Shown here piece by piece: positions 2,956-54,121 of a stretch of DNA of 64,000 bases. Source of the stretch: Linum tenue (Eukaryota; Streptophyta; Magnoliopsida; Malpighiales; Linaceae). Under the pieces are notes generated by a model. That model had not been told where the DNA came from. It saw nothing but the letters and a program-made list of their open reading frames with translations, and ran no database searches. The stretch lies in assembly GCA_946122785.1 (NCBI GenBank), contig CAMGYJ010000005.1, positions 80,842,547-80,906,546 of the forward strand. Direction: 5' to 3'. The position numbers and the translations under genes are program-made. Each line of letters opens with the position of its first letter. The first letter of the stretch is position 1.

Positions 2956-5900
2956 ATGTCCACCGACAAGGCCCCCCAGGTAGTGATCGAGATCGACGAT
3001 GGAGGTAATGATCTCTCCGATTCTTATGTAGATGTTAGGAATTTATACGTAGGAGTAGAATGTTCTTCTTTACCTAGTACTCCTGGGTTTGATTTAGTCG
3101 ACGGTAGCGAGTTCCTCCGTAGCTCCTCCTCCGACATGGCTTGACGCAACGACGGTGAGGAAATTCTCCGGGAGGAAACCATGGCAGGTGTGTACTCTGG
3201 TGTGACTTCGGTGCGGTGGAAGGGGAAGGGCGTAGCATTGGGGGAGTCGTCCGCCAGTCCATATTTGACGGTGGAAGATGTGGCCGGCGATATGGAGACT
3301 GATAGCTCTCTCGCTTTGTCCGAGGGGGATCCCTCGGAGTCCGATGTGCTGGTTGCTGCCACCCGCATGACTGAGGCCTTCGCACGCCGCGGTGTGTGGG
3401 GGTTGGGTGCTGACTCACATGAAACTACACCAATATAAAATCCCAACTAGAGCCCAAGTTTTTAAACTCTAATCGGGTGCAGTATAGGGCAAGTATTTAG
3501 ATATCGATCCGGGTCGGTCCGTCTAGAATAACAGACCATTGTCCCCGGCAACGACGCCAAAAACTTGACTCGCACGAAACTACACCACAATAAAATCCCA
3601 ACTAGAGCCCAAGTTTTTAAACTCTAATCGGGTGCAGTATAGGGAAAGTATTTAGATATCGACCCGGGTGTTGCTTCCCCCTAACTGCTACCATGCTATG
3701 TGAATTGGAACGATTGCTTTGGGCACGGTAATCGTGAACCGTAGAGGGATGCATATATGGTCGGAGACCACAATCTCAATTGCTAAACCAAGGTGAGCAT
3801 GAAAGGCCGTGTCACTCGACCCTCTCGGTTTAGACAATCAGTAATTGACTTACTCCCTCACTCAACTCTAAGGTCGGACGGCTTGGTCGCGATTAACCGA
3901 CTTGCTTAACTCAATATCGAGGTTTGCCCTAATTTAACCTAGATTAGGTGTCTTAGAAAGCAGAAGGAAAACCAACTCGATTGAATCTCCCTTGGAAGGG
4001 AGATTTTCCTCTCTAAGCTAGGGTAAGGTGGCTAATTAGATTGCTAGCACCTACATGCACAAACCTAAGGGTGCTAAGCACAAAACATGCACAACCCCTA
4101 AGTTTCTAAGCACAAGTATGCACAATCATGAAAAATAATGCCTCAATCATTGAATTGAACAATACCCAATGACAATCATCCAATACACATAAAAGAAAAC
4201 TACATGGTAGAGTTAGGGTTTCACAACAATAAAGTGAAAGGAGGTCTACTCCATGCTAGAAGTGGGGAAAACAAAAGGGAAAGAGATGGAAACCATCTTG
4301 GGGGATGCTCCCGGTCTTCTTGGCCCTTGAGTTGAGCTTTCCTTGGAGGAAATCTTCCCAAAATTTGCCTTGAAGCTAAACCCTAGCCTTCTTCTCTCCT
4401 TGGTTCGCGTTTCTCTCTCTAGAATGTAGAAGAAGGCTTTTCACACCAAATGGGCCCCCTCTTCTCTCCTCCTTTGAGCTCATCTTTTAAACTAGAGATG
4501 ATATGAGTTCACGGCCGTGAACCATGAAACGCGTCCATGAACTATAGGCGTGCGCCAAAACGCACCGCATCGTTCACTCGAGTTCACGGTCAGCTGCCTT
4601 TGTTCATAGTCTTAGTGACCGTGAACTCACCCTGCGTCAGTAACCTTCACTTTGGCTCTGGTTGCCTCGCGATTCACGATCAACTCCTCTTCTTCACGGT
4701 CATGCAAGACCGTGAACTCCCTTTGTTATCCGTGAACTGGTTCTTTTTACCTCTTCTCCCGATTTTCGATCCTTTTCGCCAATCTTTCGACTCCGAGGCT
4801 GGTTTCACCTGCTGAATCCTGAAACACACTCAAACACGAAGAACCTAGCATAAAACCAACATTTAAGGAGTGAATTTGGCACAAACACCTAAGTAAAACG
4901 GGGGCAAAACATGTGCAATTAGACCCGAATCAGGCGCGGATTACAACATCATCGATTGGGTGGATATGTTTCTAGATGACGCGGTTCCATTTGAGCATTT
5001 GGTGTGCGGTCCTGATCACCCGTCGATATTACACCATGCTGATCTAGAGATGTATGTGCGCGGGCTGGGTTTGCCATCTCACTGGCAATACGCGGTGCCC
5101 TCTGAATATAGCCGCGTCGGTAACTGTCCAGCTGGTTGGTTCGGCGTATATACAGAGTATTGGCGGATGGGTTTCAAATTTCCCATCGACCCTTTACTTT
5201 GCCACCTGTACAGTTTGGTGAAGTGTTCTTTGGCACAATTCTCCCCTTCGGTTATCTTCCACACATGCGCGATGCAGGAGATGTGCAAACGGCGGAACTT
5301 GCTGCCTACCATTGGCTTGTTCCTCCATATCTACAAGCTTAAGGTCCCGAGATTGACGGGGCCAAAGAGAGGGAATGGGTGTCCATTAAGCGGCACGACA
5401 ACAAACCTGACGGATACGTGTATGGGTCGCCAAAGCTGGAGAAAAACAGGTTTGAAAAGTTTTTCTATGTCCGACCGCCCCCCGGAGAATTGACCGCGGT
5501 ACCAGTAGATTTCCCTACCTCCTGGTCGAACGAGCATGTGAAAGATTTCGAGTCTAATCTGGGAAAGTATCCGCAGCTCTAGAGGAATTATGACTTGCTG
5601 CTGCTAGAGAAAGTAAATCTCTACGAGAAGAGGACTCACGAAGCCGTGCTTAGCGAGTTTTTTTGTTGAGGGTTAGTATCTTTCCGCGTTATTTATAACT
5701 CCCTGTATTAATTGGACCCTTATGCCGCTTTGTTGTAGGAGTGGATTACAACACTGTTGCCTCCATGATCACTGTTGTCGAGGAGCCTGCGCGGGGCGCG
5801 AAGCGGAAAGCTGGTGGCACTAACGCAAACATTCGTTTGCTGAAGCTCGTCCGCGCCGAACCCGTAAGCCATGTGGAGGCTTGCTCTGAGGTGGCCTTGA

Positions 5901-26015: not shown

Positions 26016-26254
26016 GCAAACAAACAAAATAACAAACACACACAAGAAGCTGAAATTCTGGGAAAGATGGAGTGATAGCTAGCTTAGCTAGCTCGTGAAA
26101 TGAACCCGAATGGAGGCCCACCATCACTTCCCTTTGTCCGATGCTTTGTGACTTCTAAGCCTTAATGGCCATCTTCTACACTAGCCACAAGATCAACAAA
26201 CAAAAACCTACACAAATCCAAAAACACACCCATCAAAGTTCACAGTCTCTGAAA

Positions 26255-27559
26255 ATGATGCAGACCAGGAGCAAGCGCCATACCCATCATACCAAGATCT
26301 CCCTCTTGTCTCTGTTCTTCCTCCTCCTCCTCCTACCCACAACCAACACAGCCGCCGCCGCCGTCACAATCGGCGGCGGCGTCAGCGTCGGAATCGGCAA
26401 TGCAGGTACAGGAGGCGTGTGGATCGGCGGCGGAGTCACCTCCCAAAACCCTAACCCTCCTGCCGGCTCGACCCTCGACGCCGCTTACTCTGCTCTCCAG
26501 GCCTGGAAATCCGCAATCTCCGCCGACCCTTCCGGCGTCCTCGCCACGTGGGTCGGCCAGAATGTCTGCTCCTACAAAGGCATCTTCTGCAAACAACAAT
26601 CCCCCTCTTCTTCCTCCACTCCCACCGTCACCGGAATAGATCTCAACCGTGCAAATCTCCAGGGAACCCTCGTCACCGAGCTTTCCCTCTTAACCGATTT
26701 GACCCTCCTCCACCTCAATTCCAACAGATTCCGCGGTGCCGTCCCGGAGACATTCCGTGACCTAATTTCCCTCCAGGAATTAGACCTCAGCAACAACCAA
26801 TTCTCCGGCCAGTTCCCTTCCTCCGTCCTCTACATCCCCAATCTCGTCTACCTCGACCTCCGATTCAACTCCTTCTCCGGCCCAATCCCCGACGCCCTCT
26901 TCGACAAGCGCCTCGACGCCATCTTCCTCAACAACAACCAATTCGACGGCGAAATCCCCGACAATCTCGGCAACTCCCCTGCCTCCGTCATCAATTTGGG
27001 CTACAACAAGTTCACCGGACAGATCCCCTTAAGCCTGGGGTTCATGAACTCGAGGCTCAAGGAGATTCTCTTCCTCAACAACCAGCTCACGGGGTGCGTC
27101 CCCGAAGGAATCGGGCTCTTCTCCCAGATGCAGGTTTTCGACGTCAGCTTCAATTCCCTGATGGGTCATTTGCCCGACACGGTGGCGTGCTTGAACGAGA
27201 TCGAGGTTCTGAATTTGGCACACAATGAGCTTTCGGGTTCGCTCCCCGAGCTGGTCTGCTCGTTGCGGAGCTTGGTGAATTTGACGGTGGCGTACAATTT
27301 CTTTTCTGGGTTCAGTCAGGAGTGCGCGAAGCTGTTTGTGAGGAACGTCGGGTTTGATTTCGAGTCGAATTGTATCCCCGGGAGGGATATGCAGCGGCCG
27401 CAGCCGGAGTGCTCGTTGGTGCCCGGCGGTGGGTTGAGTTGTTTGAGGATTCCGGCGGCCCAGCCGCTGGTTTGTGGGTCGATTTTGGGTAGGGTTGGTT
27501 CCGGCGCCGATCGGCAGGTTCGGCCGGGACCAGGATCAGGATCATCCTCTTCGCCGTGA
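26255..27559 (+). CDS. Secreted leucine-rich repeat protein (LRX-like N-terminal type, no extensin tail)
   Basis: This is a single exon of 434 codons from ATG 26255. An in-frame ATG at 26165 would add 30 polar residues. I prefer 26255 because it puts the hydrophobic signal core (LLSLFFLLLLLPTTNTAAAA) about 17 residues from the start. A Gly-rich spacer follows, then the LRR cap (AAYSALQAWKSAISADPSGV with the NVCSYKGIFC cysteines). About ten plant-type LRRs of pattern LxxLxLxxNxFxGxIP end in a Cys-containing cap (CAKLF, NCIPGRDMQRPQPEC). The family includes LRX and LRX-like cell-wall proteins; those have a Ser-Pro extensin domain after the cap, which is absent here, and only a short GSGSSSSP tail remains. 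It likely acts in the cell wall. Its ligand is unknown. Confidence 0.85.
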   Translation: MMQTRSKRHTHHTKISLLSLFFLLLLLPTTNTAAAAVTIGGGVSVGIGNAGTGGVWIGGGVTSQNPNPPAGSTLDAAYSALQAWKSAISADPSGVLATWVGQNVCSYKGIFCKQQSPSSSSTPTVTGIDLNRANLQGTLVTELSLLTDLTLLHLNSNRFRGAVPETFRDLISLQELDLSNNQFSGQFPSSVLYIPNLVYLDLRFNSFSGPIPDALFDKRLDAIFLNNNQFDGEIPDNLGNSPASVINLGYNKFTGQIPLSLGFMNSRLKEILFLNNQLTGCVPEGIGLFSQMQVFDVSFNSLMGHLPDTVACLNEIEVLNLAHNELSGSLPELVCSLRSLVNLTVAYNFFSGFSQECAKLFVRNVGFDFESNCIPGRDMQRPQPECSLVPGGGLSCLRIPAAQPLVCGSILGRVGSGADRQVRPGPGSGSSSSP

Positions 27560-28074
27560 CATTTGGGGTAGGGTGGGTAATTTTGGGTTGACGGGTTGGG
27601 TTGGTTTGAGTTGACTGTTGTAAGTTGAATCATCAATCAGTATGTATATTAGTTGATGGGATGGGATCGGTTCATTAATGATTCTGAACTTCCTTCTTAT
27701 CTTCTGGGTGGCTAACCGATCTTTCTCTCTGATTTATTGCTCTCGTGGTGGTTGGGATTTACTGGGAATGGTTTTCGGGAATGGTGCTTAATTAGTTATG
27801 TATGTGTTGGCAAATGGCAATGGAAGTAGAAATGATGGTGTTCGCAAGAGGGACCATTTTGTGGGCAATGAACCAGAAATGGTTAAGAAGGGACATCTTG
27901 TCGTGGGTTTCAATGGTTTCAACTTTTTGGTGAAAACGCTTCAATGTTCCTGCTCAACTGAATGTAGATCGAAATTGGTAGGTGCTTATTCGATGTTAGA
28001 GCACGTTTGGAAGTTGTCATTGCGATTGTTAAATAGATGTATTGTTGTGAACTTATGTATAATAATATATATTG
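27560..28074. other. 3' flank of the LRR gene
   Basis: This is probably 3' UTR and spacer. The plus-strand frame at 27798-28097 and the minus-strand frames here show no family features. No poly(A) signal stands out clearly. Confidence 0.35.
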
Positions 28075-28518
28075 ATGAATTTGATGAAATATATTAACAA
28101 ATACAGCCCTGATGCAGTCGTGATTGATGCCAACGGCATTGGTGTACAAACCTATTATTACCTAGAGGATTTGGGATATTTTGTTACGGCAGAAAAAGGA
28201 CAAAGTCGAGCCGATGACCATGAGTCCTATAGGAATCGTCGTACAGAACTATACGTAAAATTTTCCGAGTGGCTGTTGTTGTCACCAATCCCTAATCACG
28301 ATGGCTTAATCCGAGATTTTAAATCTTTAGAAGCGTTTTGTGAGCCGAATACGGGCAAATTAGCCCTAGAGTCTAAGAGGGTAAAAGGGACAGTGAGTAC
28401 CGATTATTCCGATGCTCTCGCTTATACTTTTGCGGTAAATCCTGCGAGAAAGGATAACCAATATAGCCGAAGTATTGGTTTGGCATATGAGATAGTGTTA
28501 AAAGTTGAGATAAAATAA
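28075..28518 (+). pseudogene. Phage terminase large subunit-like C-terminal nuclease domain, N-terminally truncated
   Basis: This is an open frame of 147 codons from ATG 28075. It reads SPDAVVIDANGIGVQTYYYL early, RADDHESYRNRRTELYVKF in the middle and GKLALESKRVKGTVSTDYSD followed by ALAYTFAVNPARKD near the end. The spacing matches the RNase H-fold nuclease of tailed-phage terminases: a strand ending in a metal-binding Asp, a helix with N-R-R-E, a basic LESK loop and a final D-S/A-DAL-A helix. The N-terminal ATPase half, about two thirds of a normal terminase, is absent. After NPARKD the frame runs into unrelated residues and stops at 28518. I saw no intron, and the frame is undamaged, unlike nearby decayed elements. 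Plants have no known terminase. Phage or bacterial DNA transferred to the genome, or an assembly chimera, are the alternatives. Confidence 0.6.
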
Positions 28519-29480
28519 TATGTGTTTACTAAAAAAAATGATGCATTCTAAACAATACAAGTGTAATAACAATCTCATAGAAACAATGAGGATTTTTTTT
28601 TAAATTTGAATTAAAAAATAATAGATTTATGATGGATTTGTTGGTATTATAGATTTAATGAATCTATTGTTTGCTTGTTGGATTTATTATGGATTTTGTT
28701 TGATTATATTTGTGAGAAGCGATATGGTATTGGAAAATGAGGATTTTGATAAATTTTGAGTTTTAGAAGATTCAAGATTCATGATAGGCAATATAGATTT
28801 GAAGAATCTGTTATTTCTTTGTTGGATTTTATTATGGATTTTGTTTGATTATATTTGTTGGTGTGATTAATTTTTACTCTCCTAAAATTGGCTATCAAGC
28901 AATGGACTTTGGGGCAAGTATATAATTTATTGGATTTAGGACCCAAATCTCTCAAAAATCCATGAAGCAAATTAAAAACTACCCTACCAAAAAGTTTACT
29001 CAAAAAATTTGCGTCTCAAAGATGTGATTGTAGGTAGGGATGACAACGAATCGGGTTGGGGCGAATAGTGCATATTCATTATTCTACTAACATAGTTAAA
29101 ATCAAAATAATAACTAATGGAGTTTCAGATATCCACTACTATCCATGAGTAATAGTTTATCTTTATAACTCCAACCATTAACATCCACACTTGTAGTGAC
29201 ATTACACAAGTGACGCACGACAATAAATTGCTAGAATGAAAAAAATTAGTTAAAACAACATAATTTCATGAAAATATTATATATGTATAATATATGTCAC
29301 ATATATTGAAAAAAAAAATAACAATATCTAGACAAAATACATATACATGTGTATAATCGGGTGGGTTTGTGTTGAATAGTGGGAAACCAATTCATTATCC
29401 GTAATGTTCGAAATTGAATCTCACGGATTCGAATTGATATTCACAGATATTTTTTCCATTTGACATTCCAAACTGTAGGT
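28519..29480. other. AT-rich spacer with a partial repeat
   Basis: A tract around TTGTTGGATTTATTATGGATTTTGTTTGATTATATTTGT occurs twice about 130 bases apart (28,670-28,720 and 28,815-28,860). It resembles inverted material at 51,230-51,390. From about 29,100 the sequence resembles 36,960 onward, the start of the segmental duplication. I see no gene. Confidence 0.4.
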
Positions 29481-30030
29481 TGCAAAGTAAAGAAGATACA
29501 CATCAGGTTAAAACAAACTGTACTCCCCACCCTCTCCTTTCGCATGTGCATTGTTAGGCTAAAAGCATATTCAACAAGTTCCTTGGGAAACAATCAAGCG
29601 TGAGCAGCTAACATGGGTCTTGTTGCAGACGAATGGGGCATGCTAGCATATAGACAAACAGTGTCTTTTGTCATTCTCCGGTAGGGTTTATTCCATCTGC
29701 GTATCTCAGATGGCTGTCCCTTTGCATTATACAAATCAGACCTTAGATAGACACCAGGTCCATCGACTGTCTGTATCTAACACATTAGGTCACATGGATG
29801 AGTGCTCATCGCAATTCGGTCCGGAATCTGCAGCCAGGAACCTGACGTTTGTTGACAACAGGACATCTTATCGCATTTTACAACAGTGTGAATCACACAA
29901 CTATCATTGAACAATTATAGAACATGCAATTCAGTGTCGGTCACAGCTTCGTTGTATAATCATTTTATTTCGTATTAAAAAAACATATTCCCGTGGTGTA
30001 CACAATCAAAACAACTCGTTTCCATGCGAT

Positions 30031-30358
30031 TTAATCAAACTCTTTTGATGTGATACTTGTGATGTCCTCATCCACACCAGAAGTAGGGTTTACCATTAAC
30101 AGGAAAGGGTTCGGTTCTAGACTTCTAGTCCAATAAGTCAGCCTTCCAGAGTCCACCAGAATTTCTTGCAGCGAAAGGTAACTCCAACCTAACCTCTGTA
30201 ACTTTTCTGAACTCATTTCTTTCTTCTCCTGTCCATCTGTAAAGCTACCACCCACCGACAAAAATGTTAAACTGCATTAGCCACACTTGGAAAGGAGAGG
30301 CAGATAAGCAAAACTAAGAATGCCGAATCGAGCAGATGCATAAAAACTATTGTTGAGA

Positions 30359-30391
<33 letters not shown>

Positions 30392-31928
30392 ACCTTAATC
30401 TGGCGCCTTAGACCAACTCGGCCATCTCAACTTGTTGATACCTAATATCTTAATGTGCTTCTAGTATTAGTTCTATGCAGGATTAGTCAAGAAGAGTAAT
30501 AGAACTGTGAAGGGCTTACTTCTTAGGATAATTGTAGTTGGGATATTTGTCCTTCAATATATCCACAATATCCTTTATATGGACAGAATGTGAAGTACAG
30601 ATGTATCTTTCTTGTGCCTCAGGCTTCTCGTACACCAGAACCAATGCTTCTGCTACATCGCACATCCACCACCCGGTGGTGCCAATTATCCGCCAAGTCC
30701 GATCCTTCTGCATATGGCAGCAAATAAAGCTCATGAATGAGAATACATTACAGTTCTAGCTGCAGTAGCACAGCAAAAGGGAAGATCGAAACCCATAAAC
30801 CAACTTTGGAAGCAACTCAGCTACATGGATGGAAGCTTGACAATTCGCACACAGGATACCAATGGCTGGCTACCTTTCAAAAGCTTGGCGAGAAGCAAGG
30901 TGCTTGCATTCGTGGTGGGCTGCAGGATTGGCCCGAGGATGAGATTGGGACAAACACTCACTACATCAAGTCCATTGGCTTTCCCAAACTCAAATGCCTT
31001 GCTCTCAACTTCTGTCTTGGAGACACAGTACCATTTCTGCAGGCAACCAACAGTATAAAATTAACATGGTTCCCGTTAGAGTTTGGATAAAAAAGCAAGC
31101 CGTTTTTTTGTTCTTGTCATACCATTACTACCTATGAACCAATTCAATGAGAAGTTAAACACAGGGTCTTGTACTACTAATTAATAAAACAGCATTGCTT
31201 TCTCCATAAGAGAGTAGTAATAACCAGACCTCAATAGCTCTGCAATGTTCAATGTCGGACCAGCAAGACTCGTCCATGACCCGACTATCAGGCCAAGAAG
31301 GGTTCATCATAAGAGCAGCACTAGAAGACACAACCACAACTCGCTCGACCTTCGCTTCGAGGCATGCTTTCAGGACATTTAGGGTTCCTTTCACTGCTGG
31401 CTCGATCAAGTCAACCTAAGAACAGAGCTCGTGTGTGAGGGAAGTCGCTTCCTTTTGTTTGTGGGTCGCTGTAGATTGTAATCAATTGAAGAACCCAGAA
31501 TCAGGGGAATAAGAAATAGGGAACTGGCCTGACCTGAGGGTTTGCCACAGAGGAAGAGGGAACAGGGCTGGCGACATGGAAAACTCCCGAGCAGCCTTGA
31601 ATTGCATAGAACAGAGATGAGTAGTCCAGTAAATCGGCCTTCACGAGCTTCAGATTCGAGGATGCGTTTGGGAGCTGCTTCAAATGGGCATATTTTTCAT
31701 CCTCTGCAACATTCAAATTCAAAAGCCATTACTAATCAAATTGAAGTACTTCTAGTAAAGAAGATGGGTTTGATGAATCAAAATTGGGGGTTTTATTAGT
31801 TGAAACTTACAGGGATCTCTGACGGTGCCTCGGACTGGATAGTTCTTGGAGAGGAGGAGATGAACAACCCAGGAGCCCAAGAAACCTCCGGCGCCGGTCA
31901 CGCATACAGTTCCCTTCGCCGTCGACAT
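30031..31928 (-). pseudogene. CCR-like gene A, broken (short-chain NAD(P)-binding reductase family)
   Basis: Six exons can be placed: 31811-31928, 31534-31703, 31230-31415, 30874-31036, 30520-30707 and 30031-30244. The N-terminus has the Rossmann loop [11 protein letters not shown], and exon 4 has the catalytic Y-x3-K (KWYCVSKTEVES). Intact copy C has 319 codons. Copy A has three lesions. The codon formed by joining exons 1 and 2 is TAG where C and B have TTG. Exon 5 lacks 2 bases (188 against 190), shifting the frame at VVDVR. Exon 6 lacks bases near its end, replacing the [10 protein letters not shown] tail by an unrelated tail to the TAA at 30031. A tRNA-Leu gene lies in intron 5. The family includes cinnamoyl-CoA reductase and relatives; the CCR signature NWYCYGK is not present. 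Confidence 0.8.
30351..30431 (-). tRNA. tRNA-Leu (anticodon AAG), in intron 5 of CCR-like gene A
   Basis: An 81-nt cloverleaf can be folded. The acceptor stem is GTTGAGA/TCTCAAC with A73, and the anticodon stem-loop is CCAGA-TTAAGGT-TCTGG. There is a long variable arm of the Leu type (TCCGAAAGGGC) and a T arm GTGGG-TTCAAAT-CCCAC. A-box (TGGCCGAGTTGG) and B-box (GGTTCAAATCC) are present, and a T5 run follows on the minus strand as a Pol III stop. It is on the same strand as the host gene. Confidence 0.95.
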
Positions 31929-32229
31929 GAGATCGGACTCGGAGAGTGTGGGGAGGGAACGATGAGGTTTAATGTCTGAGGCTTCTCTGTAGCTTTTGAA
32001 AACCCATTTTTGTAAGCTGCCATTGAAGAAGCTTGGTGTGGGCTTGCCACCGAATGCTGTTCTGTGTCCGAATCAGCCGCCATCTCCAAGTGGGATTAAG
32101 GCGAAATTCTTGACGCCAAGTCGTCAAGAGCGACCTGTGTTCTCATTATTGACGACGCAAGTGCTGACGTGGGTCGGTGCACAGGCAGTGCTTTATTCAC
32201 TTATTTTTTTTTGTCACTGAAGGACAAAT

Positions 32230-32930
32230 TGGTTTGGCATTTTGAGAAATTGTAAGGGATTTATTTGATTCAATTGTATTGTTTTGGGTAATTGAATCAA
32301 ATTGAATGTTCGGCCGCAGAAAATTTGATCCGATCAATTTGATTTTTCTGAATTGATCCGCTTTAAGTCAAATTTCAATTGTTTGGGATGACGGTAGAAA
32401 TAATTGTGAAATCACACTCGAGATTCTACCGAAAAGTTATACTATAATCATGATTTAACCGTAATTCAACTATTTCGTACCACTAATCACTTATCATTTT
32501 GGGATACTTATCTAATATTTCTGGACCGTTCAAAAGGTAAAGTACGAAAAATATTGCTTACTAGACTTCCCCTTAAAACATTGAAAAACATGAGACTCAT
32601 CTCACAAAGTTAGAAATCCACAAAGTTAGAAACCTTTCAAGCAAACTCCCTCAAGTCAAAAGTATACACCGAATGAACTGAAAGCATGATCCAACTGTCG
32701 ATGCTCATTTGCGGTTAATGGAGAGCAGTATCTTGGAAAACTTCCACTCTGATTCGCAACACTCGCTCGCAGAAGAATTCAATTTAACTTTCATAACTTT
32801 AGACAAATTTCTAATCACCAATGCCCATCCTCCCTCAAGAGAGTACTAATTAACTTGCGTGGAAACACCAAGGTGTATACATTAGTTGAAGGAAGGATTC
32901 AGCTATAGTCTAAGAACCCTGCCTTCTTAT
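32230..32930. other. Spacer between CCR-like genes A and B
   Basis: It holds AT-rich sequence shared with 43,250-43,790 (for example TTTTGGGATACTTATCTAATATTTC), part of the segmental duplication. At its right end stand bases of the original last exon of gene B (GCCTTCTTAT), cut off by the MITE at 32931. No other gene. Confidence 0.5.
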
Positions 32931-33623
32931 TAGGGATGGCAATGGGTCGGGTTGGGTCGGGTTTTGTCAAACCCAAACCCATGGGTTTATCTCTGAAAAA
33001 AACCCGGGGTAAAACCCACTGGGTTTGAAAAACTCAAACCCAACCCAACCCGTTGGGTATCCGCGGGTTCATGGGTACCCACGGGTTTTGTCGTAAAAAT
33101 TTTACAATTACAAGTTCTTATCAAAATTAAAGCCAAATATCAATCTCTCAATACAAATTATCCATATATAAAACACCATTCTAGAAAATTCAAGCAAATC
33201 ACAAATAAACTATACAAATTGTTCAACACCAATCTAGAAAACTCAAAAAAATTGAAGCAAATCATAAATTGTTCAACACCAATCCATAAATAACATGTTT
33301 AATTGAAAGATTCTTTTCTTTACTCTCCACTTCATAACATCAACTTCATTCTACACAATTAAAAAGAAAAAATTAGATATGTCTCCACAAACATAAATAA
33401 GATTAGTTGTTTAGAATATTAAATATACCAAAAAAATTAATTATATGAGTGGGCGGGTACCCACGGGCCGGGTTCATCTAAACCCAAACCCAACCCAACC
33501 CATTGAATAGTGAACGGCTTTAAACCCAAACCCGGCCCAAAACCCGTCAACACGGATTTTACCCGCATTGACCGGGTTGGGTCGAGTGGGTACCCATGGG
33601 TTCGGGTTTTATTGCCATCCCTA
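32931..33623. mobile_element. hAT MITE with TAGGGATGGCAA ends, copy 2, in the last exon of gene B
   Basis: It has perfect termini TAGGGATGGCAAT...ATTGCCATCCCTA and a perfect 8-bp duplication CTTCTTAT (32923-32930, 33624-33631). It is the inverted counterpart of 19890-20591, with the same GGGTTTGGGTTTAAA and TTCACTATTCA subterminal words. It interrupts the last coding exon of the CCR-like gene B, and its first three bases, read on the minus strand, form an in-frame TAG. Confidence 0.92.
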
Positions 33624-35280
33624 CTTCTTATAGCTCTCCACAGATTCAACAACAGTTTCTTGTAGTGCACGGTAACTCCAACCTAGACCCTGCAACTTTT
33701 TTGAGGTCGTTTCTTTCTTTTCATGTCCCTCCTCAATAAACCTGCCAAAAAGAAAGAAAGGAACAAAAAAAAAAAAAAACGTTTCAAACTGGGATTCGAA
33801 TTGTGTTCTTTCTAAACCAAAACCCTTAATGTGAACACAAAAAACTAACTATTTTGAAGAACACGCGTATGCATGAACACCAAACTGCTTATAGTTTCAT
33901 AAGAAAACTTACTTCTTGTGACGATTGTAGTCAGGGTATTTTTCCGTCACAATATCAACCATGTCCTTAACACGAACCGAATGAGCCGAGCATATGTATC
34001 TTCCTTCCGCGTCCGGTTTCTCATACACCAAGACCAAAGCTTCGGCTACATCACGCACATCCACAACCATCCAATGCTTGTTCTCAACAGAGTCGTGACC
34101 TCCTTCTGCAGTTACCGTAGCAAAACAGAGTCGATGAATGAACAAAACGGAAACCCTATTTTAACATCGTTCCAAATCATCACAAGGTACCTTTCAAAGC
34201 CATGGAGAGAACCAAGGTGCTTGCGTTCCTCGTTGGTTGCAGAACAGGTCCCATGATGAGATTGGGACAAACGGTTACTACATCGAGTCCAGTGGCTTTC
34301 CCATACTCAATCGCCTGACTCTCTGCTTCTGTCTTTGAAACTTGATACCATCTCTGTAGATGATGAACAGTAATAGGAACAAATTTACATTTTTTTATAT
34401 GATAGGCAGTGGCGGAGCCACTTGAGACCAAATAATGTTCTTTCTAAGGATACTAATCTGTTTGATTTCGGTTAACCACTGAACAATATGATGGTTAGTG
34501 ATTAACCAATAAGAGAGAAAAAAATCAAAACCAATAACCAAATCGATAAACCTTATCGGTTGATTATAATCACACACCTCAGTAGCTCTGCAATATTCCA
34601 CATCGGACCAGCAAGATTCGTCCATGGGTCGACCGCTGGGCCAGGCAGGGTTCATTATAACAGCAGCGCCAGAAGAGACAACCACCACCCGCTTCACCTT
34701 CGTTTCGACGCACGCTTTAAGAACATTCAGTGTTCCAGTCACTGCCGGCTCGATGATCTCTACCTGAAAAAGAAGAAAAAAAAGACTGAAATTCTCTTCC
34801 GTTGAGATCAAGGAAAATTTTCGAGTCCGTTTTAAGTTCAGTTTGTCAGGAGCTGTATAAATCAAAGGAAGAAGATCATGTTACTAGTTGGATATATACA
34901 CTAGCCTGTGGATTCAGTACGACGGAGGAAAGAACAGGGCTGGCGACATGGAAGACACCGGAGCAGCCCTGAATTGCAGAAAGCAGAGAAGGATAATCCA
35001 GTAATTCGGCCTTCACGAGCTCCAGATTCGTGGATGCGTTTGGGAGTTGCTTCAAGTGGGCATTCTTTGCGTCCACTTAAAAGAGGAAGTTTGGCAATCG
35101 GCAAGTCAGCACCGCCGGCGGCGGGATTGTTGATCTGAGAAATGTGGAAAAGGGGAACTTACAGGGGTCTCTGACGGTGCCGCGGACTAGATAGTTTTTG
35201 GAGAGCAGGTGGTGAACAACCCAAGAGCCTAAGAAACCTCCGGCGCCGGTCACGCAGACGGATTCCTTCCCCGTCGACAT
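33621..35280 (-). CDS. CCR-like gene B (NAD(P)-binding reductase, stop codon from a MITE)
   Basis: The six exons are 35163-35280, 34906-35075, 34578-34763, 34191-34353, 33913-34105 and 33621-33741, 951 bases with stop, 316 aa. The parts in order are a Rossmann loop ([11 protein letters not shown], residues about 10-20), SGVFHVASP, the [19 protein letters not shown] strand, and catalytic Y-x3-K in [25 protein letters not shown] and a C-terminal helix follow. Bona fide cinnamoyl-CoA reductases carry NWYCYGK here, so this is a CCR-like (CRL-type) reductase whose substrate I cannot tell. Intron 2 begins GC (CACAG|GCTAGT). The hAT MITE ends the frame after ESYKK, removing the last residues AGFLD and beyond. 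Exon lengths agree with copy C, with 3 bases more in exon 5. Confidence 0.82.
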
Positions 35281-36135
35281 GATTAAAATCGTTCAATGAG
35301 ATTGAGTATAGTGGAAAGATTAGATTAAGTAGGAAAACCCCAAAAGCGGCCGTCCTTGCTTATGAATTAGTCAGAGTTGTGTTTTCTTGTTTTCGTTAAA
35401 ACATTCATTCTCCAATTCACACAAGAAAGTAAAAGGACAAATTGTTGTAGTGAGCATATGTTGGTGAAACTTTGAAAGGAGACCGAGTCGTTGTCACCTT
35501 CATTGGATGGTTCATCAAGGGATCTATTGGCCTGTGGCAGAGTAAGTTGATGATGATGTATGTTTGGGTTTTTATTTTTTTTATATTTGACAAAGGTATG
35601 TTTGGGTTTCATTGATTGATTTCCTTCCAATCAAGATTGTTAAGATCGTACCGGAAGTTGCAAACCGAAGAGTCAGCAGTAGAATATTTTATACTGAAAT
35701 CATGACCGTTTCATACCGCTAAAAATCACTTATCCATTTAGATTTCGGTAGAACGTGTTCTAGACCGAACCACCAATACGGTACGGTCATGCAAACATTG
35801 CTTCAACTGCTTTTTTAGCTTGATGACTTGGCTGGTCTTTGGTTCTGATTGGATTATGCTCCAAAATTGTTTCTACTCCAGCTCAAAAGTTATTGTTCAC
35901 ATCTATATATAAAACATTTTGGATGTTGTTGGGTGAATGTTCCGCGTTGTCAAACCGATTTAAATCATTATGTCAATTTCGCAAGTAGTATGATTCAATT
36001 AGACTACAACTGGTTTATATGTTAGTTTTAACAAAACAAGGGTGAGCAAAGTGAGAAACCATTAACACCAAACCAAGTATGCATAGTCTACTCTGCCCAA
36101 ATGAAACAACAAACAAGCTTGGCAAATCTCCGAGT
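35281..36135. other. Upstream region of gene B and spacer
   Basis: 35,290-35,640 matches 48,573-48,633 plus 50,148-50,330 upstream of gene D, once the Pack-MULE in D is removed. The rest (35,640-36,130) is AT-rich. I see no gene. Confidence 0.45.
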
Positions 36136-40535: not shown

Positions 40536-40954
40536 TTTCCCTCACTCCATTCCCATGTGCATTGTAGGGTAAAAGCACAAACAACAAGTTCCTTGGGAAA
40601 CAATCAAGCGTGAGAAGCTAACATGGGCCTTGTTGTCAGACGAATAATGCTAGAGTATTGAGTATTGACAATCAGTATCTTTTGTCATTCTCGGGTAGGG
40701 TTATATTATTCCATCTGCGTATCTGAGATGGCTGTCGCTCTGCCATTATACAAATCGGACCTTAGACACCAGGTCGGTCCATGAACCGTCCGTATCTAAC
40801 ACAACAAGTCACATGGATGAGTGCTAATCGCAGTTTGGTTCAGAATCTGCGGTCAGGGCCCCTAATGTTCGTCGATATCAAGGCGTCTTTATCGTGTTTT
40901 ACGACCGTGCAGATCATGTAACTATCGTTAAACAGTTATAAAACCTGCGATTCA

Positions 40955-41095
40955 ATGTCGGTCGCAGCTTCGATGTATGATATTTTATTTAGCATAAACA
41001 ACCCATTCTCGTGGTGTACACAATTAAAACAACTCTCTGCAAAAAAAAAAAAAAAAAAAAAAAAAAAAGATCAAACTCTTCGATGTGAACTTGTG
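40955..41095. other. A-rich tract downstream of gene C
   Basis: A run of 29 A at about 41,040-41,068 interrupts sequence otherwise homologous to 29,940-30,060. It may be a slipped microsatellite or the tail of a lost retroposon. The short frame through it is meaningless. Confidence 0.4.
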
Positions 41096-41151
41096 ATGTC
41101 CTCATCCACACCAGAAACTTGGGTTTACCAAGCACAGGAAAGAGTTCAGTT

Positions 41152-42982
41152 CTAGTCCAATAAACCAGCCTTCTTATAACTCTCCACAGAGTCCACCAGG
41201 GTTTCTTGCAGTGAACGGTAGCTCCAGCCGAGCCTCTGCAACTTCTCTGAACTCATTTCTTTCTTCTGCTGTCCATCTGTAAAGCTGCCACTCACCAACA
41301 AAATTGTTGACTACATTAGCCGAGAGGTAGATAACCAACTTAGAATGCCGAATTGAGTTGCGATAGCAGAAGCACAAAAACACTTGTTGAGAGTGGGATT
41401 TGAACCCACGCCCTTTCGGACAAGAACCTTAATCTGGTGCCTTAGACCAACTCGGCCATCTCAACTTGTTGATGTTTAATATCCTAGCATTTTTATACTT
41501 CTGGGATTATCCACGATTATTCAAGCAAAATATTGAGATATGAAGGGCTTACTTCTTAGGATAGTTGTAGCTGGGATACTCGTCCTTCAAAATATCAACA
41601 ATATCCTTAACATGGACTGAATGCGAAGTGCAGATGTATCTCCCTTGTGCCTCAGGCTTTTCGTACACCAGAACCAATGCTTCAGCTACATCCCGCACAT
41701 CCACAATCCGGTGGTGCCTATTATCCTCCAAGTCATGTCCTTCTGCATATGACAGCAAACAGAGCTCATGAATGAGAATACATTTATTGTTCTAGCTGCG
41801 GTAACACAACCGAAGCAAAGATCAAAACCCATAAACCAACTTTGGAAGCAACTTTGCTACATGGATGTAAGCAAACTCAGCGTAATCAGAACACTGTTTT
41901 AGACATTCGCACACAAGATGGCTGGCTACCTTTCAAAAGCTTGGCGAGAAGCAAGGAGCTTGCATTCGCCGTAGGCTGAAGGATTGGCCCGAAGATGAGA
42001 TTGGGACAAGCACTTACTACATCAAGTCCATTGGCTTTCCCAAACTCAAATGCCTTGCTCTCAGCTTCTGTCTTGGAGGCACAGTACCAATTCTGCAGGC
42101 AACCAACAGTATATAAGATTAACATGGGTTCCCATTATAATTTGGATACAAAAGCAACCGTTTTTTGGTTCTTGTCATACCATTACTAACTATGAACCAA
42201 TTCAATGAGACCCTAAACATAGGGTCTTATCCAACTATTTGACAAAAAAGCTTTATCGATATCCCTTTTTCTCCATAGGAGAGTAGTAATAACCAGACCT
42301 CAATAGCTCTGCAATGTTCAACGTCGGACCAGCAAGACTCATCCATGGCCCGAGTATCAGGCCAGGAAGGGTTCATCATAAGAGCAGCACCAGAGGACAC
42401 AACCACAACTCGCTCGACTTTCGCTTCAAGGCATGCTTTCAGAACATTTAGGGTTCCTGTCACCGCTGGCTCGATTAAGTCAACCTAAAACCAGAGTTTC
42501 TGTGAGAAAGTCGTTTCCTTTCGTTTCTGGGTCGCTGAAAATTGTAATCAATTGAAGAATCCAGAATCAGGGAGAGAAGAAATAGGGAACTGGCCTGAGG
42601 GTTTGCCACAGGGGAAGAGGGAAGAGGGCTGGCGACATGGAAAACTCCCGAGCAGCCTTGAATTGCAGAGAACAGGGATGGGTAATCGAGTAAATCGGCC
42701 TTCACGAGCTTCAGATTCGAGGATGCGTTCGGGAGCTGATTCAAGTGGGCATATTTCTCATCCACTGCAACATTCAAATTCAAAAGCCATTACTGATCAA
42801 GTTGAAGTAATTGAAGATGTGTTTGATGAACCTAATTTGGGGTTTTTTTTATGGTTGAACTTACAGGGATCTCTGACGGTGCCTCGGACTAGATAGTTCT
42901 TGGAGAGGAGGAGATGAACAACCCAGGAGCCCAAGAAACCTCCGGCGCCGGTCACGCATACAGTTCCCTTCGCCGTCGACAT
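41152..42982 (-). CDS. CCR-like gene C (intact NAD(P)-binding reductase)
   Basis: The six exons are 42865-42982, 42595-42764, 42299-42484, 41930-42092, 41553-41742 and 41152-41284, together 960 bases, 319 aa plus stop. All phases agree. The parts in order are [20 protein letters not shown], the Rossmann cofactor loop, then [43 protein letters not shown], and catalytic Y-x3-K in [29 protein letters not shown] and [18 protein letters not shown] follow. The length is usual for the family. The CCR signature NWYCYGK is changed to NWYCASK, so I call it CCR-like; monolignol activity is not implied. Intron 2 begins GC (CTCAG|GCCAGT). A tRNA-Leu lies in intron 5. It is the best candidate for the functional member of the A/C pair. 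Confidence 0.88.
41385..41465 (-). tRNA. tRNA-Leu (AAG), second copy, in intron 5 of CCR-like gene C; anticodon stem mismatch
   Basis: It is duplicated together with the host gene, so it has the same place, strand and length as 30351-30431. Acceptor stem, T arm, A73, boxes and a following T5 run are kept. The anticodon stem has changed to CCAGA/TCTTG, leaving one mismatch in place of a C-G pair, and the D-side GGCGCC reads GGCACC. It may be decaying, though folding is still possible. Confidence 0.9.
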
Positions 42983-43249
42983 TAGATAGGACTGAGAGCG
43001 TGCGAGGAGGAAGGATAGGGTTAATGTCTAAGAGTTACCTGTAGCTTTTGAAAACCCATTTTGAAAGCTGGCATTATAGATGGTTGGTGATGGGAACCTG
43101 GCACCGAATGCTGTTCTGTCCTGAATCAGAATCAGCCGCCATCTCCAAGTGGCATTAAGGCGAAATCCTTGACGCCAAGTGCGACCGGTGTTCTCATTAT
43201 TGACGACGCAAGTGCTGACGTGGGTCGCTGCGAAGGCAGTGCTTTTACA

Positions 43250-43802
43250 AGAAAAAAAAAAAAAAATGTTAGTCAAGGACAAATTGATTTGGGGTAGAAG
43301 TTCTAACGGATAAATTTGATCTAATTGTCTCGTTTTAGGACATTTGAAGCAAATTCACTCGTTAGAAAATTTGGATGGATTTATTTGACCCAAAAAATTT
43401 TGAATTGATCGGTTTTGAATAAATTTCAATCGTCTAGGATGGGGCAGATAATTCGAATTGACTCGTTTCGATTAACTCGTTTTATATAATGACACAACTG
43501 ACTAAATTTTTTTTTCTTCGTTTTTTAATTGATTCATCCAAACAATCCCATTTAGGATTGTCATTTGTGTAGATGCCTTACTAGCAATGATTGTGAAATC
43601 ACACTAGAGGTTATACCAAAAAAGTTAGTGATATAGTATTTTATACTATAATCATAATTTAAATAGTTTAACTATTTCATATGCTAATCACTTATCATTT
43701 TGGGATACTTATCTAATATTTCCGGTCCGACCAAAATATTGCTTACCAGACGTCCCTTGCACTCCGGATTTCAAGTTCGAGTTTATCACATTAAAACATT
43801 GA
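43250..43802. other. Spacer upstream of gene C
   Basis: AT-rich, homologous in part to 32,220-32,590. It ends with the target duplication AAACATTGA (43794-43802) of the next element. I see no gene. Confidence 0.45.
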
Positions 43803-45396: not shown

Positions 45397-47392
45397 AAAC
45401 ATTGAAATCATTTTCTTATGAAGGTAGAGTCTACTCCATTAAAACATTGAAAAGCGTGAGACTCGTTAACAAAGTTAGAAATCCATAAAAGAATCAATCA
45501 TACACTATATCTAAACATTTAAAATAATCATTTATCTCAAAATTAAAACAACATCTATAGTCACTACACCAGACTCTCCGTATCAAAAATTTTGATTCAG
45601 CATACAATTAAATCAAAATTTCAAGTTTTCGACGGCTCAAACCAATACAGTGGATGACACATCTTTAGAAATCTTTCAAACAAAAACATGATTCAATGGT
45701 GGATGTTCATTTGAGGTTAATGGAGAGCAGTATCTTGAAATGAACTTCCACTTTGATTTGCAACTCTCTTAAGAAATCAATTTAACTTCATAGCTTTGGA
45801 CAAATTTCTAATCACCAATGCCTCCCATCCAGGCATCTAGTCCAAGAAGCCTGCCTTCTTATAGCTCTCCACAGATTCCACAAGAGTTTCTTGTAGTGCA
45901 CGGTAACTCCAACCTAGTCTCTGCAATTTTTTTGAGCTGGTTTCTTTCTTTTCCTGTCCCTCCTCAATAAAGCTGCCAAAAAAAGAAAAGAAAAAACGTT
46001 TCAAACTGCAATTTGAACCATGCTCTTTCCAAACCAAACCGGGAACAAGCGTATGCATGAGCACCGAACCGCGGTTTATAGTTTCATATAAGGAAGCTTA
46101 CTTCTTGTGACGATTGTAGTCAGGGTATTTTTCCGTCACAATCTCAACCATGTCCTTAACACGAACCGAATGAGCCGAGCATATGTACCTCCCCTGCATC
46201 TCGGGTTTCTCATACACCAAGACCAAATCTTCGGCTACATCACGCACATCCACAACCATCCAATGCTTGTTCTCCACAGAGTCCTGACCTCCTTCTGCAA
46301 TTACAGTAGCAAGAATGATGAACGAAAGGGAAATCCTTTTGTGATATCTTTCCAAAATTATCACGGGATAACAACTGCGCTACCTTTCAAAGCCATGGAG
46401 AGAACCAAGGTGCTTGCGTTCCACGTTGGCTGAAGAACAGGGCCCATGATGAGATTGGGACAAACGGTTACTAAATCGAGTCCAGTGGCTTTCCCGTACT
46501 CAATTGCCTGGCTCTCTGCTTCTGTCTTGGAAACTTGATACCATCTCTGTAGATAATCAACATCAACAGGAAAAAAATTACATTTTTGGATATGATACTA
46601 ATCGGTTCATCAGTTTCGTTTAACCACTAATCAATATGATGGTTAGGAATTAACCAATAAGGGAGGGGGAAAACTAATACCAATAACCGCATCGATAAAC
46701 AGTATCGTTCACACCTCAGTAGCTCTGCAATATTCCACATCGGACCAGCAAGACTCGTCCATGGTTCGACCGCTGGGCCAGGTAGGGTTCATGATGACAG
46801 CAACACCAGTAGAAACAACCACCACTCGCTTCACCTTCGTCTCAACGCAGGCTTTAAGAACATTTAGGGTTCCAGTCAGTCACTGCTGGCTCGATGATCT
46901 CAACCTGGAAAACAAAACCCACTTTTTTTTTTTTTTAAATTCACTTTCGTTGAGATCAAGGAAAATTTTCGAGTGCTTCAAGTTCAGTTTGTTAGGAGTA
47001 TAGGATATATACACTAGTCTGTGGATTCAGTACGACGAAAGAGGGAACAGGACTGGCGACATGGAAGACGCCGGTGCAGCCTTGAATTGCAGAAAGCAGA
47101 GAAGGGTAGTCCAGTAATTCGGCCTTCACGAGCTCCAGATTCGTGGATGCGTTTGGAAGGGGCTAAGATCAGGTGACTAAGGGGGGGTCCCTGTCTGTTT
47201 TGTTTTCTGGGAATTCTCCCGGCGGATCCCCAACCCACGCCGCCGTTCCCGGGGGAATTATAGCGGCGGAGGAAGCTTCCGAAGGCGCCATGACTGATGG
47301 GAATTTTTTGGGAATGAGAATTATTTGTTGGCAGAGAGAGAGAGGCCATGGATGATTGGAATTATTTGGGAATGGGAATTTTTTGTTGGCGG

Positions 47393-47556
<164 letters not shown>

Positions 47557-47796
47557 ATTTTCTGATCGTAGATTTTTTTTTCCGACGAACATCGTCGCCG
47601 GAGAAGAATTTTCCGGCGACAATGCTGATTTTTTAATGTTTGTTGACATATTTTGTAATGTTTGTATGCTTTGTTATTTTGTAATGTTTGTCGGTTTTTT
47701 TGTAATGTTTGTAAACTTTGTTATTTTTGTGCACCATGTTTGTAAATTTTGTTATTTTTGTGCACCATGTCTGTAATGTTTTTTATGTCTAAAAAA

Positions 47797-48010
47797 CACC
47801 CGGGTTGACTTTGTGAATGAGCCCCTCTATATAGGGTTGGAGCCTCCAAAGTCAACCCGGGAGTTTTTTCCCGTTCGTAAGGATTGTCGGTCTAGTTTGT
47901 CATTTTTGTCCACCATGTTCGTACTGTTTGTATGTCTAAAAAAACACCCGGGTTGACTTTGGGAAGGAGCCCCTCTATATAGGGATGGAGCCTCAAAAGT
48001 CAACCCGGTT
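47797..48010. repeat. Two copies of a 66-bp hairpin unit
   Basis: 47797-47862 and 47945-48009 each have arms CCCGGGTTGACTTTG and the inverse CAAAGTCAACCCGG (the second AAAAGTCAACCCGG). An inner stem is AGCCCCTCTATATAGGG. They lie about 148 bases apart within the insertion. Confidence 0.8.
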
Positions 48011-48633
48011 GTTTTTTCTTTTTGTATGGTTTGTATTGTTTGTAGGTCTAGTTTGTATTGTTTGTACAGTTCATACGTTTGTAATGTTTGTAAATCTGTT
48101 TGTATGTTTTGTCGCTCTAGTTTGTACTGTTCGTATGTTTGTATGGTTTGTACTGATTATAAATCCGGTTTGTATACTTCGTAATTTTCCATAATACCCA
48201 AACTACCCCTGTTATTAATTAAATAGCCCTTCCCACTTTTTAACCATTGGATTAAAGTGTACAGATCTAAGGGCTGGGAGGGGCTTAGTCAAGTGACTAA
48301 GCATCCCCTTATTCACCAGATCCGCACTCGTTTGGAAGTTGCTTTAAGTGGGCATTCTTTGCATCCACTTAAAAAGAGGAAGTTGGCAATTTTTAAAAAG
48401 TCAGCACCGCCGGCGGGATTTTTGATCGGAGAAATATGGAAAGGTAAAACTTACAGGGGTCTCTGACGGTGCCACGGACCAGATAGTTTTTGGAGAGTAG
48501 GTTGTGAACAACCCAAGAGCCTAAGAAACCTCCGGCGCCGGTCACGCAGACGGATTCCTTCGCCGTCGACATGATTAAGATCCTTCAATTGAGATTGATA
48601 AAGGGAGGGTAAGATTAGGCTACGTATATTATA

Positions 48634-51020: not shown

Positions 51021-52083
51021 AAGGTAGATGATTAGTTAGTGGAGCCGGATTTAGAGTTTTCTCAGTAGACTGAGTTTGTATTTAAGGTTCTGTTTTTGCA
51101 TTTCAATAAAATTGTCAGTTTGCATCCAATTTGGTTTGCTTGACTATTTTTAGAAAATACTTGCGTCTCATGAATTTGTAAAAATCTAGTTTATAGTTGA
51201 GATTTGGACCAAATTCATAAATAGTGTAAAATCTGTTATGTATCCACGATATAATTCAACCAAATCTATCGTCAAATTCAACAAGCAAACAACAAAAATT
51301 TTCAAATCCATAATGGACCATTCCATCACAAAACCCAAATTTTTTAAAATCCATGTTATGATCAAAACCATCGTTTGTCAAATACAACAAGCAAACGATA
51401 TGTCTTCGGAGTGATAATTTGTCCATCTTTTATTCATCTGTGTTGCTTTGTGAATTGCTTTAGAGGCAACAGAGTTATCGATCCATTTCATGTTAATAAT
51501 TGTGTCTGTTCCAAAAACTGGGAAAAAGGACTGAATTCTCATTTACTGCCTTCATTATGAAGCAAAACTCGCTCCAGCTTCACTACCTAATCTTGTACTG
51601 ATCGATCAAGCTCGCCAGAAGCTCTGTCCATTGTAATGGTTCTTCTGAGTCCCTGATACATTTAACCCAAGAGTAACAAACCCAAGGGGTTCAGACCATT
51701 GGCAAAGGACACAGAATCCAGAGTGAGCTGCTTTCATCTTTCAACATCATTGATGCTTACAATTGAGGGATAGGGTAGTGCACTGGAAAAACTGCAGCAT
51801 CCTTTGCCCATTCTGTTGATTCCATAAAACAGCATCCTTTGCCATTGATTGATTTTATAAGACAAATATACATGTGTAAGTTTTTGACAGATAGGCAACC
51901 CAAGGCACTCATACAACATGTAACTCGAAACTATCTATGTTAAATAGACCATCTACTTGACATTTCACTCCTCCCTGCTTCTTAATCAGACACATAAACT
52001 CCCACAATACTCTGTACGCCTCGTCTAATACCATTTCCTGTGTTTCTTGAGAAATTGTGCAAGTCTTCAACACATATTAGTTG
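51021..52083. other. Spacer downstream of the INTS3-like gene
   Basis: The tract at 51,230-51,400 has words inverted relative to 28,600-28,720 (AACAAGCAAAC). Beyond the stop of the INTS3 frame the minus strand stays open for about 50 codons (about 51,890-52,045) in another frame, but I could not relate it to INTS3. No gene recognised. Confidence 0.3.
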
Positions 52084-53580: not shown

Positions 53581-54121
53581 ATCTTTTCTCGATCTAGAGA
53601 ATAAAACAGAGACTAGAGTTAGCTCACCTGATCAAGATCACCTAAATCGTCACTTCTCCCGCTCCAAAATGCCACTTCCTGGCAATTCGGGAACTGCTTT
53701 TCAAATTGTCGCCGCCACCGGAGGCTGTCGCATATCTGATCACCGGGAAGCACTGCTTGAAGGGAATTTGACCCTTTTGGAGGAAGAAACTCGTCTGGCG
53801 AAATTCCTCCACATATTCGCAGCAAGGTAAGAGAACTGTGCGGGCAGCTGCTGAGGGATTGGAAGGGGACCCTAAAAAGGGTGTCTTGAAGGAATACTGA
53901 GAGAAGCGATCGTTATTGAGTTTAAGAAGTTACGATGTAGCGATAACGTGAAGGAGATCATGGGATATTGGAAAGAGTCATGGAAGTGAAAAGCGGAGTG
54001 GTCAGGCAGGCAGGAAACTGGGAAGGAGGTTTGAAGGGCTGAGCCGCTTTCAGAGTCAACCCCTCTTAAAACAGTTACCACTATTCTATCAAAAAAAAAA
54101 AAAACAGTTACCACTATTCTG
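53581..54121. other. 5' flank of the INTS3-like gene
   Basis: The minus-strand 5' leader and promoter side lie here. Small frames are incidental. At 54,069-54,120 the word ACAGTTACCACTATTCT occurs twice around ATC plus 14 A, like a target duplication around a bare poly(A) tail. Confidence 0.45.

Follow-up and report, generated by a model that had tools for sequence, protein, structure and literature searches.

A phage terminase fragment, most likely of Liberibacter-type prophage origin, between plant genes in a Linum tenue contig

The findings of this analysis suggested that positions 28093 to ~28475 of the window (the whole 64-kb stretch of Linum tenue DNA that was analyzed) are a broken-off piece of the gene for a phage terminase large subunit (TerL), kin to those of Liberibacter prophages, and that this piece was probably inserted recently into plant nuclear DNA during break repair. 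An initial annotation had recognized tailed-phage terminase sequence inside plant DNA, and this was upheld by the match of window positions 28093-28491 to P0005, an intact terminase (88% identity over 133 residues, E 1.4e-71, tblastn), and by the phage records, in which 16 of the 20 matches listed were annotated as terminase at the match. The phage origin given at that stage therefore stood; the most informative point, that the likely donor was a Liberibacter-type prophage, had been missed.

When the open frame was compared with 50,697 phage records by tblastn, 23 records matched, and identity among the 20 listed ranged from 29.5 to 37.4%. Plasmid records gave four matches, at 27-34% identity. 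In viral contigs, the matches were three prophage loci (76-77%) and another three that were distant (27-30%). A search of a 5.8 billion-protein collection, restricted by length and by words in common, returned 16 candidates, two of which (P0001 and P0002) matched the fragment, both being terminase pieces. A check by profile and by phage database had been suggested for this frame, and its outcome was divided: the best phage record matched at E 5e-11 (37% identity), and Pfam placed the fragment alone in no family at E 1. In PHROGs, the fragment alone had a single weak match, to a family without an assigned function (E 0.29), and P0003, P0005, and P0012 matched Pfam Terminase_6N. Judged by these similarities, the insert is a piece of a tailed-phage TerL. 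The plant RNase H or transposon family that had been named at the outset as a competing best match did not appear, as terminases were best in the searches made; this origin was rejected, with no such Pfam match and with the two terminase pieces as the fragment’s homologues. Chance resemblance to terminase was ruled out by the E-value of the match to P0005.

The frame previously described as undamaged was found on the plus strand with 147 codons (28075-28518), from ATG 28075 to the stop at 28516-28518; read from TTG 28072, the same frame had 148 codons, and from stop to stop it spanned 28066-28518. The initial annotation had taken the whole of 28075..28518 for phage sequence, which held for a core from 28093 (at the earliest 28081) to ~28475 and failed for the ends of the ORF. 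Per 12 bases, ungapped identity between the insert and the best of three IMG/VR prophage loci (L001-L003) was 2-5 before 28093, 6-12 for 28093-28476, and 2-6 after that. The left edge was placed from 28081 to 28093, because a gapped blastn match to L002 began at 28081, with a one-base gap at ~28091. On the right, the last four residues clearly common to the window and P0005 were YSRS (last codon 28471-28473), and a weaker YE match could take the edge to ~28497, so that the right edge fell between 28473 and ~28497. From these edges, the phage part was therefore estimated at ~380-415 bases. If the left edge is at 28081, the one-base indel near 28091 is possibly the first sign of decay. The doubled TTGATGAA at the left edge is possibly repair filler or slippage; it is compatible with end joining and proves nothing. 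The ORF with its ATG ran open across both junctions (Table 1).

Table 1. Coordinates of the putative insert, its landmarks, and neighboring features in the window.
Feature	Position	Strand	Basis
Putative phage-derived insert, TerL codons (P0005 residues 364 to ~490)	28093..28475	+	tblastn, per-12-base identity
ORF containing the insert (ATG 28075)	28072..28518	+	frame analysis; ~20 bases 5' and up to 45 bases 3' not clearly phage
Left junction zone, TTGATGAA at 28072-28079 and repeated at 28081-28088	28066..28092	+	sequence
Second catalytic aspartate codon (VVIDANG, P0005 D375), present	28126..28128	+	sequence and alignment
DYSD motif codons (P0005 D467/D470), third catalytic position region, present	28402..28413	+	sequence and alignment
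Plant LRR-extensin-like gene, left flank	26165..27559	+	Pfam LRR_1/LRR_8/LRRNT_2; best match 76%, Corchorus olitorius
AT-rich right flank	28477..29533		28% GC; internal direct repeat
Duplicated reductase locus, first copy	29534..35331		partner pieces within 40545-48626

Gene content indicated that the window is plant chromosome. The insert had been described as lying between an LRR gene and a duplicated CCR locus with AT-rich flanking DNA, and the same arrangement was recovered here, with the LRR-extensin-like gene on the left, 28% GC DNA on the right, and the reductase duplication from 29534 onward. Host DNA is present on both sides of the insert in one contig, as the LRR-extensin gene and the reductase locus, and no N occurred in the 64-kb window. 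Among the best 120 of 1756 relatives of the LRR-extensin gene, the named organisms were all flowering plants, at 76% identity or less. In a tree of 61 of the 120 relatives listed plus the window, the window grouped with Punica (SH-aLRT 89), at a weak fork with long branches. Taken by itself, this position supports no more than a core eudicot, perhaps of Myrtales, and the plant may come from a lineage that lacks a close annotated genome in the protein collection, or whose own records were absent from it.

A direct repeat of ~130 bases (28585-28713 and 28736-28858, 76% identical, AT-rich) adjoined the insert on its right, and a diverged inverted copy of part of this repeat was located at 51249-51347. 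In the reductase locus, 29534-32390 and 40545-43441 shared 81% identity and are an old tandem duplication; further pieces of 33624-35331 were paired with 45855-48626. Each copy carried a tRNA-Leu(AAG) on the minus strand (30351-30431 and 41385-41465), and the best solved relatives of the reductase exon at 34398-34880 were kavalactone reductase and cinnamoyl-CoA reductase. Because the duplication starts 1.06 kb to the right of the insert, the window contained no empty copy of the insertion site. Farther away, the N-terminal domain of Integrator complex subunit 3 was encoded in one open frame at 52087-53631 on the minus strand (Pfam Ints3_N, E 1e-148), a weak gypsy-type transposon similarity that fell below the cut-off was seen at 4897-5490 on the plus strand (Transposase_28, E 0.009), and a long simple repeat, a microsatellite encoding (SL)n and then polyQ in an open frame, occupied 47169-47720 on the minus strand. 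When 190 stop-to-stop frames of at least 50 residues from five prophage loci were compared with the window at E 0.01, the matches were the insert, its minus-strand shadows, and one weak match at 52.7 kb (E 0.002). Beyond these, none of the 190 frames gave any sign of a more extensive prophage remnant.

P0005, the nearest relative of the window, has 507 residues and comes from a Logan contig of 5192 bases without an organism name. Between the edges, 12 of 127 residues differed, and one run of 47 residues was identical; the P0005 terminase is full length, whereas the window holds a fragment. P0009 followed at 80% over 120 residues, then P0003 and L001-L003 at 76-77% and P0004 at 72%, where P0003, P0004, and P0009 are the terminases named Candidatus Liberibacter solanacearum (72-80% to the window). 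These solanacearum terminases and those of L001-L003 were co-linear with the window and aligned without gaps over 120-135 residues. Their genes have ~510 codons (P0004 is named partial), in contrast to the ~128 codons that are set in plant DNA in the window. DNA identity between the window and L001-L003 was 73-75% over 356-362 bases, and viral contigs contained no DNA relative closer to the insert than these three loci. The other named Liberibacter terminases listed were 40-59% identical to the window, and two proteins without an organism name, P0010 and P0017, were at 61% and 47%. Among the 30 best rows, the best one outside Liberibacter reached 45%, yet P0012 (40%) and P0014 (41%), both Liberibacter rows, fell below it, which indicated that the Liberibacter terminase family is split and that the window joins one part of it.

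For the full terminase of L002, identity was 98% with a protein bearing the name Candidatus Liberibacter solanacearum and 76% with P0005 over the whole length of the latter. Among the 15 best matches of the L002 terminase, all 12 with names were Liberibacter or Liberibacter phage, from 98% down to 57%, and the other three were without an organism name (P0005 at 76%, P0010 at 66%, and P0017 at 61%); the rest of the best 120 of 447 relatives were at 37-43%. Two scans of reference-genome contigs detected no Liberibacter locus: the first gave no relative, and the 20 loci that came from the second (33-44%) belonged to other bacteria.

In a tree of 22 rows, from which P0001, P0002, P0015, and most of the distant proteins listed were left out, a group made up of the window plus 17 rows of Liberibacter type (three without an organism name, and three IMG/VR prophages) was separated from four outgroup rows with support of 100/99, one of these outgroup rows, P0020, carrying a long-branch warning. 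The window fell in a subclade of 14 rows (95/94) and stood beside P0005 (88/88), with equal end branches of 0.067. AU tests, run on groups chosen after inspection of the tree, did not reject a window placed beyond the 14-row subclade (p 0.117) or beyond the full set of 17 Liberibacter-type rows (p 0.121), but did reject a tree in which the window joined the solanacearum-type rows and P0005 was left out (p 0.024). Owing to the tree and the AU results together, the donor is called a Liberibacter-type prophage, without a species. Bacteria of this type are plant pathogens confined to the phloem, and a prophage of one of them is the most likely source of the insert.

The substitutions that separate the window from its relatives carried the pattern of a phage gene. 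At 75 positions where L001-L003 agreed and the window differed, codon positions 1/2/3 were represented 19/11/45 times, which matched the differences among the phage sequences (p 0.86) and departed from an even distribution (p 3e-6); the neutral share of these private changes was best estimated at 0, with an upper bound of 39%. Between the window and L001-L003, dN was 0.16-0.17 and dS was saturated (2.9 and 4.5; not computable for L003). The insert contained 20 CpG, compared with 13, 18, and 11 in L001-L003, and its CpG observed/expected ratio was 1.19, whereas the near flanks had 0.74 and 0.62; the LRR gene (0.95) and the whole window (0.85) were less CpG-poor than these flanks. The substitution and CpG patterns resembled phage and not decay, and so would fit either a young insertion or a sequence that is not really in the plant.

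The open frame had earlier been thought to mean recent transfer, selection, or an assembly join. Recent transfer and the assembly join both stand, and selection lost its footing, as the 19/11/45 pattern was phage-like and youth suffices to explain an open frame. In the fragment, 59 of 1152 possible single substitutions create a stop. Had such fragments diverged neutrally by 2%, substitution would have left 68% of them stop-free, or 31% with indels at a tenth of the rate, and at 5% the corresponding shares would be 37% and 5.5%. Because the stop-free share stays high at low divergence, the frame would be open through youth and not through selection; selection in the plant is not needed for an open frame if the insert is young.

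A profile of 17 full-length relatives matched solved terminase nuclease domains (8dkr, E 1.1e-6; Sf6 gp2 5c10, E 0.008), in a list that also held weak malate dehydrogenase rows. A conserved aspartate of the solved domains aligned with D323 of P0005, which, together with D375 and D467/D470, we take to be the TerL metal site; the GRGIGK stretch of P0005 is presumably Walker A. The structural models of P0005 and of the fragment were both of moderate confidence. That of P0005 (mean pLDDT 70, pTM 0.54, with residues 301-380 in blocks at 77-95) showed three strands (318-323, 332-338, and 341-348) followed by a helix (353-367) and then a further strand (371-375), and 36 of the 37 PDB chains matched at E up to 0.001 came from entries titled terminase, including Sf6 gp2. 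With residue 364 as its first, the insert therefore lacks strands 1-3, D323, and the whole ATPase.

The second and third acidic positions of the nuclease were present in the fragment, and the first (D323) lay upstream of the insert. The initial annotation had seen in this frame a C-terminal nuclease domain whose metal-binding fold had been kept. Neither point could be maintained, as an insert that has lost the first catalytic aspartate along with strands 1-3 is not the whole domain, and the fragment model (pLDDT 62) contained no strand of three or more residues and hence no sheet. No structural match of the fragment model was better than E 4, the best being at E 4.1. That the ATPase half is missing was correctly stated, since the prophage frames gave no window match upstream of ~28081 when the packaging ATPase was looked for. 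Based on these models, the product of the fragment, if made, would be inactive, with no ATPase motor and no nuclease core sheet, and its likeliest role would therefore be none.

We propose that the donor was a Liberibacter-type bacterium that would have lived in the phloem of the plant or of an ancestor. Sieve elements are the habitat of Liberibacter, whose prophages are able to lyse cells. Bacterial or phage DNA freed from lysing cells may have reached the nucleus of a lineage leading to gametes or clones, where a break that had opened downstream of the LRR-extensin gene could have been closed over it by end joining. The insert would then be a molecular fossil of an infection, open only because it is young. 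A broader proposal, in which Liberibacter prophage DNA enters plant chromosomes repeatedly without the T-DNA machine, with the window holding a young insertion and the truncated, interrupted Liberibacter-type terminase pieces P0001 and P0002 as a second and older one, is unlikely on present evidence. P0001 was 81% identical to the fragment over 58 residues and P0002 86% identical over 28 residues, and the two had an equal contig count (2) and an equal longest contig (5607 bases). The ~64 leading residues of P0002 matched no fetched locus better than E 0.7; its terminase part began at about residue 274 of L001 and broke off in a conserved region, and P0001 resumed further on. Either a bacterial terminase in decay or a further insertion, this time in some eukaryotic genome, may lie behind these two proteins.

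The main alternative to a recent insertion is a false join, in which DNA of a Liberibacter-type contaminant from the plant or its insects was joined into the plant contig by gap closing or a chimeric read, and we regard this as a real possibility that falls short of probable. The insert is short, its CpG is not depleted, and its codon pattern is phage-like, and this lack of decay is also what contamination would show; as is well established, Liberibacter is found in phloem and would be present in DNA of an infected plant. However, two joins would be needed, both sealed without N in the 64-kb window, which has one convincing prophage stretch. The insert was also identical to no sequence found (88% at best), and therefore an unsampled strain would have to be assumed.

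Two further explanations differ from a recent insertion out of Liberibacter by break repair in what became of the DNA or in how it arrived. DNA could have come by way of a psyllid or other vector, as free phage, or from a non-Liberibacter bacterium with the same prophage family, a route that we consider quite improbable. The absence of a named host for P0005 and the loose placement of the window in the AU tests leave room for this route, but every one of the 12 named proteins that exceeded 43% identity to the L002 terminase (within the best 120 of 447) belonged to Liberibacter or its phage, and the rest of those 120, apart from P0005, P0010, and P0017, were at 37-43%. It is still more improbable that the plant has kept a phage gene, with the 147-codon frame expressed and under selection, either for a small protein or for a prophage-interfering RNA. 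Such a gene would account for a frame that is open with its ATG through both junctions and for the strong lineage-wide constraint (dN ~0.16 against saturated dS), but that constraint is equally explained by time spent in phage. The stretch with the first catalytic aspartate is also missing, and the fragment model, devoid of a sheet and of structural matches better than E 4, speaks against a selected protein.

T-DNA has a dedicated transfer machine and borders, and no gene of that kind was recognized in the window. T-DNA and the insert are alike in that Agrobacterium T-DNA in natural plants, as treated in the portion of a review available, is also bacterial DNA inherited in plant nuclear DNA (PMC8401529). 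The nearest parallel was that of phage WO and Wolbachia DNA in a grasshopper nuclear genome, where, according to the accessible part of the report, the prophage and bacterial DNA of an intracellular alphaproteobacterium likewise reside in host chromosomes (PMC4675112). That system, as far as the same partial text describes it, concerns an insect, a germline symbiont, and hundreds of kb, whereas the window concerns a plant, a phloem pathogen, and one short piece. Among the titles and abstract beginnings of the literature matches listed, which included few subscription papers, none reported a plant genome that carries Liberibacter prophage DNA. In the available sections of two reviews of plant gene transfer (PMC8401529, PMC12451028), no word began with “phage” or “Liberibacter,” and such an insert was mentioned neither in the accessible part of a Liberibacter prophage survey (PMC12109144) nor in that of a psyllid genome paper (PMC12203342).

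Prophage-terminase PCR tests for Liberibacter could yield false positives where the plant genome contains such an insert. If the recent insertion is true, the plant germline is accessible to bacterial DNA that is not T-DNA, with sieve elements as its probable point of departure. Should the joins be real, the prophage fragment in the plant chromosome would be a fossil left by a phloem bacterium, from which the place and date of an infection by this lineage could be worked out.
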